Translations under genes and position numbers: made by a program
The notes under the pieces: model-generated
Databases searched by the model: none
Told to the model about the DNA's origin: nothing
Seen by the model: only the letters and a program-made list of their open reading frames with translations
Virus record (IMG/VR): IMGVR_UViG_3300047550_002356
Coordinates: 1-38,870 of that record
Source of the DNA: a virus
DNA: 38,870 bases
Reading direction: 5' to 3' (one strand)
Part shown: positions 10,022 to 38,853 of the stretch, one piece after another
Numbering within the stretch: the first letter of the stretch is position 1
Layout of the letters: every line of letters starts with the position of its first letter

Positions 10022-11179
10022 CTAAACAATAATATATCTTCCGCTTCCTGCATTTTTGCTATACATACTCCAAGCCAATGCAAGGCTCATAACGCAATCA
10101 TCGTGAAATCCTTTGGGTGCTGAATACTTAACTCCTGTGTTAGAGTATTGATATTCAAACATTTCAAGTTCATAAACTATTGCTCCTTCCGGATAAGATA
10201 TTTTTCTTTGTTGTATGGCAGATGCTATACCTTCCATTAATTGCTGCTTTGTAGTTGCAGAAAATTTATACCCCGTAATATCTAATCCATCTTTTCTTAA
10301 TTCTTCAAATATAGGGTCACCAACCCCTGTGCTATCAATTAATATAGGGGCTCTTTTTAAATTCATTATTTCATTCTTTGTCTGTCTCCAATCCTTTTGA
10401 AATCTATCAAAATAGCAAACAGAACCATTCTTATCAAGACCAATTATTACTGTATAGTCAACTGATTTACCTAAATCTATTCCATAACATACTGCCCTAT
10501 CCGGACTAATAGGATATATACATTGTCTTATGTATGTATATCCAAAAGGATTTGCGCTATTATCGCTTGGGTCTGCCATATACTCTTGATTGAAAACGTG
10601 TTCCGGCAGTTCCTTTTTTGCGCTATCTATTTCTGATTTTTCTATATGCGGATTATCGTATGTACTGAATTTGAAACTCTCCCAATCTTGTTCTTTATTT
10701 AATCCTTTTAGATATAATGAGTGAAAAAACTTTTTACCTTTTGGAGTAGATAAAAACAATGCTCTACCTTTATAATCAGTAAGCGTTGGTCTTATGGCAT
10801 TAAGCCATCCTTCTTCTAAATTATTTATGAATGCAGCCTCGTCAATTACGCATAGATGAAATTTTCTTCCACGAAGATTGTCTAATCTTTCTCCGGTAAA
10901 GAATTCATTTGTTCCTCCTGTTGGATATTCTATTAGTAGTTTATTTACATTATGTGGGAATGGAACTCTCTGTACTAATTTAGAAAAGAATGTTTCAGCA
11001 AGCGCATACGTTGGGGTTATGTATGCTACTGACTGTCCATTTAATGCTGCGGTAATTATTTCAACTTGAGATAATTCAGATTTACCGAAACGCCTTCCGC
11101 ACATTACAACACGAAATCGTGCCGTTGAATTGTATATCCTTTCTTGATTAATATGTGGTTCCGGTAATTCAAGAGTCAT
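10022..11179 (-). CDS. terL: Terminase large subunit
   Basis: A 385-residue DNA-packaging motor. The ATPase domain has a Walker A motif CGRRFGKS (27-34), a Walker B LCVIDEA (109-115, catalytic Glu114) and a coupling-motif-like LFLSTPKGK (141-149). The RNase H-like nuclease domain shows GIDLG with Asp235, LIDSTGVGD with Asp282 and FHDDCVMSLALAW with Asp360/361, the three acidic positions expected. The length is short for a terminase (typically 400-500) but no domain is missing. It overlaps the small-subunit-like gene by 4 nt, which supports co-translation. It is followed by a 35-bp gap with no terminator and then the tail chaperone gene. Confidence 0.95.
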   Translation of the reverse strand: MTLELPEPHINQERIYNSTARFRVVMCGRRFGKSELSQVEIITAALNGQSVAYITPTYALAETFFSKLVQRVPFPHNVNKLLIEYPTGGTNEFFTGERLDNLRGRKFHLCVIDEAAFINNLEEGWLNAIRPTLTDYKGRALFLSTPKGKKFFHSLYLKGLNKEQDWESFKFSTYDNPHIEKSEIDSAKKELPEHVFNQEYMADPSDNSANPFGYTYIRQCIYPISPDRAVCYGIDLGKSVDYTVIIGLDKNGSVCYFDRFQKDWRQTKNEIMNLKRAPILIDSTGVGDPIFEELRKDGLDITGYKFSATTKQQLMEGIASAIQQRKISYPEGAIVYELEMFEYQYSNTGVKYSAPKGFHDDCVMSLALAWSMYSKNAGSGRYIIV

Positions 11180-17539: not shown

Positions 17540-18044
17540 CTGTTCTTAATTTTGTTTTTAGTATCTTCTTTACTTTGCTTATAGTTTTTATTAGTGACCT
17601 ATAAGGTATCCTTGTTTCCTGTGATAGCCTTACTGCATTCTTATCATTGTTTACATATTCTATGAATAATTCTTTTTCGTACCAATGCAGTTGACCTATG
17701 TACCCATTTACGATATGCTCATTAAAGTTTAATAAGTCACCATCGTTTTTATCAATCATATCTTTTATCTCATCAAACTGCTTTCTGAATTTCATAAAGA
17801 AATTACTTCTATCTGATTTAATCATATTTAACATTGTTCTTATTATAAAGTATTTTATTATCCCGTTAGTGTACATTTCAATTATCCTCTGCTCTTCCAA
17901 TTCGCATAGCACTAAAAATATTTCCTGCTTTAACTCCGACTGCAATTCGATTGGGTGCATCTTCTGTATTGCCCCATTAACATCTTTATCATTATAAAGT
18001 AATTCAATAATCTTATCCCTGTTTATATCGTTTAATGATTTCAT
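17526..18044 (-). CDS. Putative phage sigma factor-like protein
   Basis: A 172-residue protein whose two ends resemble sigma70-family regions. The first half (ELKQEIFLVLCELEEQRIIEMYTNG, then YFIIRTMLNMIKSDRSNFFMKFRK) reads like a region 2 helix bundle. The last third (WYEKELFIEYVNNDKNAVRLSQETRIPYRSLIKTISKVKKILKTKL) reads like a region 4 helix-turn-helix with the recognition helix at about IPYRSLIKTISKVK. Similar proteins in Bacteroidota phages are often annotated as sigma factors. If correct it would direct host RNA polymerase to late promoters, perhaps the TGCTATTTA elements described here. The start overlaps ninG by 32 nt and the end overlaps the membrane protein gene by 14 nt. Confidence 0.6.
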   Translation of the reverse strand: MKSLNDINRDKIIELLYNDKDVNGAIQKMHPIELQSELKQEIFLVLCELEEQRIIEMYTNGIIKYFIIRTMLNMIKSDRSNFFMKFRKQFDEIKDMIDKNDGDLLNFNEHIVNGYIGQLHWYEKELFIEYVNNDKNAVRLSQETRIPYRSLIKTISKVKKILKTKLRTDDND

Positions 18045-18396
18045 TTAGTTCTTCGCTTGACCATTTCTTTATTTCTTGTTTCGACTTTAATGCAATTTCT
18101 TCAAGTTCCTTTACGGCATCTTCTCCGTATCTGTTTACTAATCCTATGCGGTACATTGCTTGATTGCCGTGCTGATAGAGGTTGCACCAACTACATTGGG
18201 AATTCACGTTAATCTCCAAATAGCGAAGGGCATTAAATCCCTTAACGGGGAAATAATGCCCTGCCTGATTTGCCGTAAATTTACCGCACGATATACAAGG
18301 TAAGCCGTAATCTCTTTGCCTAATGTATGCGTTAAACGTGTCCTGCGCTTCCTTTGTCAGTTTCGGTATGCTTTTTTCTTTCTTGCTTTTTTTCAA
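18013..18396 (-). CDS. ninG: NinG recombination protein (Rap-like)
   Basis: A 127-residue homologue of lambda NinG (Rap), a structure-specific endonuclease that helps phage recombination at Holliday junctions and D-loops. The core matches closely: FNAYIRQRD (21-29), LPCISCGK with Cys34/Cys37, QAGHYF with His47, LRYLEINVNSQCSWCN with Cys68/Cys71 and YQHGN, then the C-terminal GEDAVKELEE and basic tail. The four cysteines form the zinc knuckle expected of this HNH-like fold. It lacks the long basic N-terminal extension of lambda NinG, so it is a core-only version. The first 65 nt overlap the previous gene, which is longer than usual, but the conserved core starts after the overlap. Confidence 0.9.
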   Translation of the reverse strand: MKKSKKEKSIPKLTKEAQDTFNAYIRQRDYGLPCISCGKFTANQAGHYFPVKGFNALRYLEINVNSQCSWCNLYQHGNQAMYRIGLVNRYGEDAVKELEEIALKSKQEIKKWSSEELNEIIKRYKQG

Positions 18397-24468: not shown

Positions 24469-24684
24469 TTAAAAATCGTTTTCGTTTATTAATTTTACTA
24501 ATTCCATTTTCAATTCGTGCAATCGTACAAGTACATCAGTCGATACGTGAGCATAATCATTTTCCCTGCCATTAAATTTGTCGCTACAATAATATGCTTC
24601 AATTTCTATTAACTGCTTGTAAATATACTTTGCTTGTAATTCACGTTGAATTTTTTCTGCTTGTAATTGTTTAATATAATTCAT
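24469..24684 (-). CDS. Small helical unknown protein
   Basis: A 71-residue protein, largely helical (QLQAEKIQRELQAKYIYKQL; LVRLHELKMELVKL). Its start lies 15 bp after the palindromic site C, so it may be the target of repression there. No family recognised. Confidence 0.55.
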   Translation of the reverse strand: MNYIKQLQAEKIQRELQAKYIYKQLIEIEAYYCSDKFNGRENDYAHVSTDVLVRLHELKMELVKLINENDF

Positions 24685-25652: not shown

Positions 25653-25994
25653 TTAATATATTGTCCATCCGTTAACTTCTGATATATACCAAAGTCTTTT
25701 AAATTTTACTTCCATTTTGTATCCCATAATTTCATTCAACTTGCAGATTGAGTGCATTAAAGATTGTAAATTTTCAAACGTGTACCTGTATTGGTTACCT
25801 AAATACCATTGAATTTTTTTGCCATTATCTAACTGCTCTTTGCAAGTGTTATGCATATCTGCATAAAACCTTATGCTATTTTTAAAATCATTTAATGTTT
25901 CAACGCCATCAAGTATTGTACGGTCATACATCGTAAATCCTTGCTTGTCGTTTGCTGCGTCATAGCACAACTGTTGTAATTTTTGCTTTTTCAT
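25653..25994 (-). CDS. First early gene downstream of the hammerhead, unknown
   Basis: A 113-residue protein with no recognised family, mixed helical and aromatic (FKNSIRFYADMHNTCKEQL; MGYKMEVKFKRLWYISEV). It begins about 33 nt after the predicted hammerhead cleavage site, so its mRNA 5' end would be generated by the ribozyme (a 5'-hydroxyl end). Leader AAATCAAACAAAATG, matching other early genes. Confidence 0.6.
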   Translation of the reverse strand: MKKQKLQQLCYDAANDKQGFTMYDRTILDGVETLNDFKNSIRFYADMHNTCKEQLDNGKKIQWYLGNQYRYTFENLQSLMHSICKLNEIMGYKMEVKFKRLWYISEVNGWTIY

Positions 25995-26021
25995 TTTGTT
26001 TGATTTGTGTGTTATAAAATT

Positions 26022-26077
26022 GGTTTAGACGGATTAGGCTAATCCGTTTCGGCTCATATAAGCCTCATCAGTAAACC
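26022..26077 (-). ncRNA. Type I hammerhead ribozyme
   Basis: The minus strand has the full hammerhead core. Stem I is GGTTTA / TAAACC (6 bp, open end), then CTGATGA, stem II GGCT/AGCC closed by TATATG (with a G-C pair next to the core), GAA, and stem III starting with A15.1: ACGGATTAGCCTAATCCGT, a 7-9 bp hairpin, then cleavage triplet GTC. Every core position (C3 U4 G5 A6 G8 A9, G12 A13 A14, A15.1-U16.1, C17) is present. Open stem I makes it type I. Predicted cleavage is between 26028 and 26027, about 33 nt before the first early gene and at the 3' end of the structured leader RNA. Confidence 0.88.
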
Positions 26078-26470
26078 TTATTGGTCTTCGCAATCCCATA
26101 CCGTTTCCGGTTTATGACCTATACCATCCGATGATTATAAAAATAATCGCTGCGCTTATCCTCTTGCTGATTGGCTGCGCATCATTGATACTGATTAATC
26201 CGGTAGGGCACTTGGTTATCGTGCATCTATTGTACTCCGGCTTTCGGTCATACTTGAGTTAGAGTGAGAGATTGTTACATACCCTATGCAGTAAGTAGGC
26301 AACCTTGTGTATTCCCTTCAAAGGTGGTTGTTACTGCATCGTGCTTTCGCTTTGTTACCTATACTTATAGGGGGTGATTTACATCAGCCTTGTGGGTATA
26401 TTATCCGCTAATCGCCTGTCAAAGAACTTCGGAACGTGGTCACCGTAGCAGCGTTCCATACCACTAATAT
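26028..26470 (-). ncRNA. Large structured non-coding RNA (about 440 nt), leader of the early operon
   Basis: A gene-free stretch of about 44 percent GC by my count (26041-26460), clearly above its neighbours. It has many hairpins on the minus strand: a nested arm pairing 26286-26294 with 26331-26339 (ATGCAGTAA / TTACTGCAT), inside it 26300-26304 with 26326-26330 (CAACC/GGTTG) and an inner CCTT/AAGG; GATTAT-TTTT-ATAATC (26133-26148); ACCG-GAAA-CGGT with a GNRA loop (26100-26111); GC-GAAA-GC (26343-26350); CCTATA/TATAGG (26358-26371); GGAACG/CGTTCC (26431-26457). It begins near a sigma70-like promoter and ends at the hammerhead. Large phage RNAs such as GOLLD or ROOL are the nearest idea, but I cannot match it to either. 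Confidence 0.7.
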
Positions 26471-26476
26471 ACACAC

Positions 26477-26506
26477 ATTATAATAAATAGCACAAAATAA
26501 TACCAA
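26477..26506 (-). promoter_or_regulatory. sigma70-like promoter for the structured RNA and early operon
   Basis: On the minus strand TTGGTA and TATAAT are 18 bp apart, close to the general sigma70 consensus. The spacer contains TGCTATTTA (26484-26492), the element also seen at late gene starts. The start point would be near 26470. It does not match the Bacteroidota TAnnTTTG type, so the reader polymerase is uncertain. Confidence 0.5.
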
Positions 26507-26560
26507 AATTTTATAACTGATTGATATTCAATACGTTAGGAGTGGGCGAAAATAGGGTAT

Positions 26561-26580
26561 TATTACAAGTATTTGTAATA
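26561..26580. promoter_or_regulatory. Palindromic operator candidate
   Basis: TATTACAA-GTAT-TTGTAATA has perfect 8-bp arms. It lies between the late terminator and the promoter of the structured RNA. The half-site TTGTAA is the same as in sites A-C but in the reverse arrangement, hinting at one regulator with two geometries. Confidence 0.45.
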
Positions 26581-26596
26581 TGATATAAATAAAAAA

Positions 26597-26617
26597 AGCG
26601 CATTGTCAATATGCGCT
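26597..26617 (-). terminator. Intrinsic terminator of the late operon
   Basis: AGCGCAT / ATGCGCT stem (7 bp, 7-nt loop), followed on the minus strand by a run of seven Ts (plus A run 26591-26597). It ends the structural and lysis transcript 50 bp after the endolysin gene and insulates the ncRNA region. Confidence 0.85.
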
Positions 26618-26666
26618 AAAAAATAGTTTTCGTTTGTGCTAAATCGTTATATTGTGTTATGTTTAG

Positions 26667-27146
26667 TTATATTTTGTTTGGTTCAAAGTGCATACCATCA
26701 ATCACCTTAATCCAATCAGCACCACATACAAAATTATTATCCCTCCAAACTTGCAAGAAATCCGGTGACCATTTTACATATCGTTTCCGGTATTCAGTAT
26801 AAAGATTATTCAATACTTTTTTATAAGGATTTTCAAATGCGTTTAAATCAATTGCAATACCCCAAGAATGCCTTGAAGGAGCAGAACCGCCACGCATCTT
26901 GCGAATGTTAAAACATCCGTCATAGGTTTTTATTTCAACGTGAAGACCTTTCTTTATAAGTTCAAAAAATACCTTTTCAAGTTTCGGAGCAAGTTCCTTA
27001 TTGCAATACATTTTATTTGGCAATGCCGGAATTTGCTTATTAATTTCTTGTGGAATATCCCATAAAATCATCCATTCTTTAATGAACTTATCTTTATCAG
27101 CAAACGGGTCACCGTATTTTTTGTATAGTTCTGCTGTTTTAATCAT
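26667..27146 (-). CDS. M15-family endolysin (peptidoglycan peptidase)
   Basis: A 159-residue zinc peptidase of the VanY/M15_4 type that cuts peptide cross-links of the cell wall during lysis. SRHSWGIAIDLN (91-102) gives His93 and Asp100, and DGMHFE (150-155) gives His153, the usual three zinc ligands. Glu155 is a possible catalytic residue. It has no signal peptide or membrane anchor, so it needs a holin, which the 69-residue membrane protein two genes upstream could provide. It overlaps the upstream gene by 4 nt, and a terminator follows, so it ends the late operon. Confidence 0.9.
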   Translation of the reverse strand: MIKTAELYKKYGDPFADKDKFIKEWMILWDIPQEINKQIPALPNKMYCNKELAPKLEKVFFELIKKGLHVEIKTYDGCFNIRKMRGGSAPSRHSWGIAIDLNAFENPYKKVLNNLYTEYRKRYVKWSPDFLQVWRDNNFVCGADWIKVIDGMHFEPNKI

Positions 27147-27586
27147 CTTTCGTATGCTTCTTTATATGCAAGTTGTGTTAGTATGACTGCTTCGCTATGT
27201 GATATTTTACCGTCAGACAATGCAATATTTAACTCACCGGCAAACGTAATCCAAAAACCAATCCTTGCCTCTGGATTTAACGTTTGTAAATAGGATATAA
27301 TTTTTGATACGGCTTCATTCATATTATCACTTTCTTGCATTATTTTATGCAGTAATGCAATTCTAAATGCTACCCTTGGAACGTGAAATTTGAGTTGTTT
27401 TAATATAACATCATCCAAATCTCCCGGAATTATATTCACGATTGTATCAGCAGCATTACTCTCAACAAATATTTTTAGATATTGGGTAACCTTTACTGCT
27501 ACTTCTGAATTTTTTTTAAATACACTGAATGCTTTATCAAATAATCCTTTGAAGAAATTATTTATTTTCCGTATTATTTTTTTCAT
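27143..27586 (-). CDS. Unknown lysis-region protein
   Basis: A 147-residue protein with a basic amphipathic N-terminus (MKKIIRKINNFFKGLFDKAF), a soluble helical middle and a C-terminal LNIALSDGKISHSEAVILTQLAYKEAYE (about 118-145). I recall similar proteins next to lysis genes in Bacteroidota phages, but no function. No clear membrane segment. The start overlaps the holin-like gene by 29 nt and the end overlaps the endolysin by 4 nt, so a lysis role is plausible. Confidence 0.6.
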   Translation of the reverse strand: MKKIIRKINNFFKGLFDKAFSVFKKNSEVAVKVTQYLKIFVESNAADTIVNIIPGDLDDVILKQLKFHVPRVAFRIALLHKIMQESDNMNEAVSKIISYLQTLNPEARIGFWITFAGELNIALSDGKISHSEAVILTQLAYKEAYER

Positions 27587-27767
27587 TGCGTTTAATTTCT
27601 TTATACATTCTAATTACGTTATACGTCACAGTTGTGAATGCAGCAGTCCCTGCCATAAATGTTGCAAAATCACTCAATGTTATACTACTTACAATTTGTA
27701 GTAATACGCTGCAAAAATATAAACCAATACTTCGTGTATCTACTGCATCGTCAATGTGTGTTCTCAT
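27558..27767 (-). CDS. Holin-like membrane protein
   Basis: A 69-residue protein with two hydrophobic segments (about 14-30, IGLYFCSVLLQIVSSIT, and 34-51, FATFMAGTAAFTTVTYNV), a short turn and a basic tail (KEIKRNEKNN). Size, two-pass topology, charged C-terminus and position just upstream of the endolysin fit a class II holin that lets the enzyme reach the cell wall. It overlaps the previous gene by 4 nt and the next by 29 nt. Confidence 0.65.
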   Translation of the reverse strand: MRTHIDDAVDTRSIGLYFCSVLLQIVSSITLSDFATFMAGTAAFTTVTYNVIRMYKEIKRNEKNNTENK

Positions 27768-38333: not shown

Positions 38334-38849
38334 TTATGTAGTCAATGTGGCTATTACGCTTGATTGTACTTCGGGTGCAAGTTCTCTCTCGCTTCCGCTA
38401 AATGTCAAAGTAAAGCCATTTCGGTCTGCTGCTGCTGTTCCTGTGGTTGCAGTACCACTCAAAAGGTCAAGACCATTTAATTTCCCTGCCAACCAATAGC
38501 GACCATTTTGGTCTTCAACAACTGCCATCATTGTGTTTCTTGCAAGTAACAAAATTTCATTTCTTGTGTTTGCTTGCATCTTGTTAAGGATTACAGTAAG
38601 CGTATTTTCAAAGAATACAGTTCCATTTTCTATGTTTCCTTGAATGGCTTGTTCATAAGAAGCAGTATTTTTAACAAGAAGATATTTATAAAATACCTTC
38701 CCTGCTGATTTTGTAATTGCTGAAACACTTCCTGATGCTTCAGTAATTGACGTTACATCGCTATACCCTATAAACCAAACCGCTTTTACGCCACCGACAT
38801 TATCCTTACAATCGAATGTACTAAATCCCTGTGTTAATGCGCAAGGCAT
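38334..38849 (-). CDS. Virion structural protein downstream of the capsid gene
   Basis: A 171-residue protein starting with MPCALTQGFSTFDCKDNVGGVKAVWF. In Bacteroidota phages I recall similar proteins (a Cys-containing start with KDNVGG-like segment) as virion components, perhaps tail tube. The C-terminus (NGFTLTFSGSERELAPEVQ) looks beta-rich. It is transcribed directly after the major capsid gene across the circle junction (29 bp gap) and ends before a strong terminator, so it is probably abundant. An alternative is a head decoration protein. Its start codon lies inside the terminal repeat. Confidence 0.55.
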   Translation of the reverse strand: MPCALTQGFSTFDCKDNVGGVKAVWFIGYSDVTSITEASGSVSAITKSAGKVFYKYLLVKNTASYEQAIQGNIENGTVFFENTLTVILNKMQANTRNEILLLARNTMMAVVEDQNGRYWLAGKLNGLDLLSGTATTGTAAADRNGFTLTFSGSERELAPEVQSSVIATLTT

Positions 38850-38853
38850 AATT
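38728..38853. repeat. Right copy of 126-bp terminal direct repeat
   Basis: Exact repeat of positions 1-126. It shows that the contig is circular with a unit of about 38,727 bp. The repeat ends where a small inverted repeat begins. Confidence 0.95.

Follow-up and report, generated by a model that had tools for sequence, protein, structure and literature searches.

The window, a 38.87-kb virus record, carries nearly all of its genes on the minus strand, in the order portal and head, fibre-like, holin-like and endolysin-like genes, a gap, small early genes, terminase and tail (Table 1). Because a 126-bp direct repeat lies close to both ends (1-126 = 38728-38853), the record probably represents an entire genome, either circular or circularly permuted. 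PAPS-reductase-like and glycosyltransferase genes are also present in this phage (12544-13722, 15096-16103). The gap between minus-strand genes, which is free of ORFs over 672 nt (25995-26666) and is the largest in the genome, separates the lysis genes and their terminator from the early operon, whose small genes run from 25994 onward, the first of them with a weak match to DUF3785, below cut-off. An earlier note, made from the sequence alone, had described about 440 nt without genes between late and early operons and a GC content above that of the surroundings; both descriptions hold, with GC at 0.38-0.46 within the gap versus 0.338 genome-wide.

The strand, which the earlier note did not state, is minus. 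Given a promoter-like site, the terminator of the preceding operon and a hammerhead ribozyme at the far end, transcription must proceed on the minus strand from 26470 to 26028, and the predicted start and cut site agree with the limits proposed earlier. The RNA had also been given a sigma70-like promoter of its own, which is plausible (10 of 12 positions at 26506-26477), but such matches are no commoner in the window than in shuffled sequence.

Table 1 Minus-strand features of the gap and of the genes around it, listed in the direction of transcription.
Feature	Position	Strand	Details
Holin-like ORF	27558-27767	-	Late operon
Endolysin-like lysis gene	26667..27146	-	159 aa; last gene of the late operon, upstream of the gap
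Intrinsic terminator	26597..26617	-	AGCGCAUAUUGACAAUGCGCU-UUUUUUU; closes the late/lysis operon
Promoter-like site	26477..26506	-	TTGGTA-18-TATAAT; 10/12 match; start predicted at ~26470
Short hairpin	26431..26457	-	GGAACG..CGUUCC; directly 5' of boxA; from sequence only
boxA	26416..26429	-	AAGUUCUUUGACAG; 14/14 identity to 16S leaders L230 and L231
Conserved 5' domain	26284..26429	-	boxA, UAGCGGAUAA, GGUAACAAAGCGAA and long hairpin with AAGGGAAUA; from the G073 alignment
Long hairpin	26286..26339	-	AUGCAGUAA/UUACUGCAU, inner CAACC/GGUUG, loop motif AAGGGAAUA
Variable 3' RNA body	26078..26283	-	No significant similarity to G073
Hammerhead	26022..26077	-	Type I layout (ends in stem I); GGUUUA-CUGAUGA-stem II-GAA-stem III-GUC/UAAACC (slash, predicted cut)
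A-rich 33-nt 5' UTR	25995..26027	-	Predicted to remain on the early mRNA after cleavage
First early ORF	25653..25994	-	113 aa; function unassigned; ATG at 25994
Terminase	10022-11179	-	

The hammerhead at the 3' end of the gap RNA has every core base in place (CUGANGA...GAA plus NUH) and forms stems I-III, and its predicted cut, between 26028 and 26027, lies 33 nt upstream of the start codon of the first early gene. The Rfam model RAGATH-1-hammerhead (RF03152) matches 26120-26023 at 28.9 bits (E=0.012), below its gathering score of 56.3, and Hammerhead_3 (RF00008) matches at 23.3 bits, below 48.5. We scanned 1.83 Mb of real strands, drawn from the window, from relatives and from other loci, with a strict pattern that required the full core and at least 5 bp in stem I, 4 in stem II and 5 in stem III; the one match was the hammerhead of the gap, and 7.8 Mb of shuffles of the window gave none. 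Judged by its core and topology, the gap RNA therefore contains a hammerhead, though one under the Rfam cut-off, and the ribozyme that had been proposed as its downstream boundary is borne out.

The strongest functional clue, missed in the earlier note, is a boxA about 40 nt past the predicted start. We gathered 16S genes from Bacteroidota genomes and scanned 400 nt upstream of each, and among the 28 leaders obtained 18 contained GTTCNTTGA, typically 80-220 nt upstream of 16S, where ~3 would be expected from the control rate. Two leaders, from two Bacteroidota genomes (L230 and L231), share all 14 nt of AAGUUCUUUGACAG with the window, and outside boxA nothing in them could be aligned to it. 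On the strength of this 14-nt identity and of the enrichment in leaders, the host of the phage is probably a member of the Bacteroidota, and the comparison supports boxA being a copied host site for the Nus complex. In Escherichia coli boxA binds NusB/S10, with SuhB, in a complex that chaperones the folding of rRNA (PMC4807359). The Nus factors of E. coli are not needed against Rho on rRNA and promote Rho termination at suhB (PMC5725501); their effect on termination thus depends on context, and the presence of a boxA is not enough to tell which outcome follows.

The same arrangement is found in one distant relative (IMGVR_UViG_3300012352_000349, here G073; TerL 61%), the sole carrier among ~100 related phage records. 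G073 repeats the order of the window, with a terminator (~802 in its locus, L183), an AT-rich gap, boxA (1038, in the same place and in the form AGUUCUUUGAUAG), a conserved domain of ~145 nt, ~300 nt that cannot be aligned, and early genes from a likely start codon at 1512. The distance from boxA to the start codon is 473 nt, versus 433 nt in the window, and one early gene of G073 (2209-2430) is homologous to window 24469-24684. Local alignment of the two RNAs scored 72 over ~145 nt starting at boxA, compared with a mean of 27.9 (sd 4.1, maximum 49) in 2000 shuffles, while the ~300 nt 3' of the domain scored 27 against a shuffle mean of 24.8, which is not significant. Within the domain the hairpin of G073 at the corresponding place has different arms (GCUCAUCA/UGAUGGGC and CACCUA/UAGGUG) and keeps the loop motif AAGGGAAUA, a pattern suggestive of covariation between these two sequences. 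The search for homologues and covariation proposed earlier yielded one homologue, in which the position and ~145 nt of sequence are conserved, and exchanged hairpin arms in a set of two. A two-sequence model (R1) gives 112.9 bits on G073, which is one of its training sequences.

In G073 neither a hammerhead nor any other Rfam ribozyme was recognisable, so that release by a hammerhead is not conserved between the two phages. G073 instead shows, in the place of the hammerhead (L183:1432-1481) and immediately upstream of the early mRNA, a predicted three-way junction formed by CGACAAUG/CAUUGUCG with two hairpins, which could be a processing element of an unrecognised kind.

Searches for further members yielded none. 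Relatives reached through the endolysin (30 loci) and TerL (80 loci) share structural genes with the window, and the RNA was present in G073 alone; none were reached through the first early ORF or the phrog_1221 ORF, and homologues of the 24469 ORF (L194-L198) have no such RNA. The relatives L153-L192, at 60-73% TerL identity and with common structural genes, often have a different early module, and several carry a homologue of 18013-18396 on the opposite strand. As the boxA-led RNA is missing from relatives whose early module differs, it seems to travel with the early module of the window. Pattern scans of IMG/VR viral contigs and of 84,980 species genomes returned candidates that, G073 apart, were chance-like and mostly in coding sequence; the two-sequence model had a single match in 296 Bacteroidota genomes (E=0.005), within an ORF and attributed to chance. 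Relatives gave weak RAGATH-1 matches that either lay in coding sequence or were no better than chance, and boxA-like sites in G070, G071 and G078 lay in coding ends.

A search of Rfam with the gap RNA returned no family at its cut-off, and the families named earlier for such a check (GOLLD, ROOL, OLE and group I and II introns) gave no covariance-model match even at E up to 10. Visual inspection had suggested a likeness to 23S domain V and to the 3' end of 16S, which was discarded because Rfam returned no rRNA match. With no Rfam family, and with its place and ~145 nt conserved in G073, this is likely an undescribed RNA element, and to that extent the earlier suggestion of a new class is supported.

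The folding energy is ordinary. Minimum free energy (MFE) on the minus strand was no better than in shuffled sequence (z = -0.76; plus strand, z = +0.12), and among 80-nt sub-windows the hammerhead alone stood out (z = -3.05), so that the description of the RNA as ornate finds no support. The nested helices of 9, 5 and 4 bp that had been reported do exist in the sequence and in the MFE structure, the 9-bp helix at 26339-26331/26294-26286, but as helices of a single sequence they do not exceed chance. boxA is partly base-paired in the predicted folds.

We consider the RNA to be, with a probability of about 0.5, an untranslated leader of the early operon built on the rRNA pattern, which would recruit the Nus complex and be freed by ribozyme cleavage. 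RNA polymerase would initiate at ~26470, and within ~40 nt the nascent RNA would present the host-type boxA, which may recruit NusB-S10 and the remaining Nus complex; the latter would carry polymerase across ~400 nt of untranslated RNA and assist its folding, as with pre-rRNA. The hammerhead would then form where the structured part ends and cut after 26028 in the cell. The boxA-led RNA set free in this way, ~440 nt long, would end in a 3' cyclic phosphate, and the early mRNA would start with a short A-rich 5' UTR. Arguing for this reading are the exact boxA, its enrichment in Bacteroidota leaders and its equivalent place in G073; the conserved 5' domain; the order of terminator, gap and early genes, which the two phages share; and the unique hammerhead, sitting precisely where the structured part gives way to the mRNA leader. 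The literature on the boxA chaperone complex (PMC4807359), and on the hammerhead that lies 13 nt upstream of a start codon in haloviruses HF1/HF2 (PMC3088659), is consistent with it. Against it stand the existence of two members only, the lack of a recognisable hammerhead in G073, the ordinary folding energy, the partial pairing of boxA and the E. coli Nus effects (PMC5725501), which leave the outcome unfixed. Three strong intrinsic terminators lie co-directionally in gaps of the early operon (24765-24735, 23060-23037 and 19956-19931, minus strand) and would also fit such a leader, but may merely divide units that have their own promoters.

The strongest rival, which we entertain only tentatively, is that boxA and the 5' domain modify polymerase in cis, for read-through of these terminators, with the rest of the RNA a spacer and the hammerhead merely trimming the mRNA, in the manner of lambda nut, HK022 put or EAR. 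Lambda nut also contains a boxA, and in the window boxA and sequence conservation both fall within the first ~145 nt; the early-operon terminators, moreover, are all on the transcribed strand, none of comparable strength having been found on the plus strand. However, fast hammerhead cleavage 400 nt downstream would sever the boxA tether before polymerase had reached the operon, the early region of G073 has few terminators, and those of the window may have promoters behind them.

The leader reading also has a stronger form, which we think unlikely, in which the RNA would belong to a new, rRNA-like class of large functional phage RNA, chaperoned by Nus/SuhB through the copied boxA, released by its own ribozyme and acting in trans during infection. 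Quite unlikely, too, is a trans-acting large structured RNA of the GOLLD/ROOL kind, with boxA and ribozyme serving only its production: the position between late and early operons, the 440 gene-free nucleotides, the raised GC, the ribozyme-set 3' end and the similar overall length in G073 would suit it, but we found no Rfam match, no folding excess, no tRNA island and no long complementarity or RNA-RNA target in the phage genome beyond chance, and the 3' 300 nt are not conserved in sequence. The comparison with GOLLD and ROOL raised earlier finds no support. The RNA could also be a long 5' UTR of the ordinary kind, with an incidental boxA match and a hammerhead that determines how stable the mRNA is or how it is translated. 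Phage hammerheads directly before start codons offer a precedent (PMC3088659), but this reading is very unlikely given that an exact host boxA occupies the same position in both phages and is followed by a conserved domain.

If the rRNA-style leader reading is true, a phage of Bacteroidota commandeers the host rRNA-transcription complex through a boxA copied from it, so far with no known counterpart of the N-like protein that lambda needs, and couples this takeover to a ribozyme that parts leader from mRNA. A short construct, with boxA point mutants and ribozyme core mutants, could then be used to probe Nus factors outside rRNA in a phylum that is little known.

Like lambda nut, HK022 put and EAR, the RNA is an element near the 5' end of an early (or long) phage operon, but its sequence is unrelated to theirs, it comes without an identified N-like protein, and it precedes 300 more untranslated nucleotides and a ribozyme. 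With GOLLD and ROOL it shares being a large gene-free phage RNA of unassigned function, whereas these measure 600-800 nt against 440 nt here (PMC12286853), and the window shows no match to their models, no folding excess and no tRNA island. The hammerhead has the full conserved core, the type I layout and the position directly before a start codon of known phage hammerheads (RF03152; HHphage of HF1/HF2, PMC3088659), but scores below the Rfam gathering threshold and terminates a long boxA-led RNA. Also close is the boxB-boxA-boxC leader of bacterial rRNA operons: in both, a promoter is followed by a short hairpin (GGAACG..CGUUCC occupying the position of the boxB-type hairpin), a boxA with 14 nt identical to Bacteroidota 16S leaders, and a long untranslated structured RNA freed, as predicted here, by cleavage. 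The window differs in that no rRNA lies behind its boxA, which alone is common to the two while the flanks cannot be aligned, and in that a hammerhead stands where RNases release rRNA. The RNA would thus resemble an rRNA leader in its working without being one, and it unites two familiar kinds of element around a domain of RNA that has not been described.
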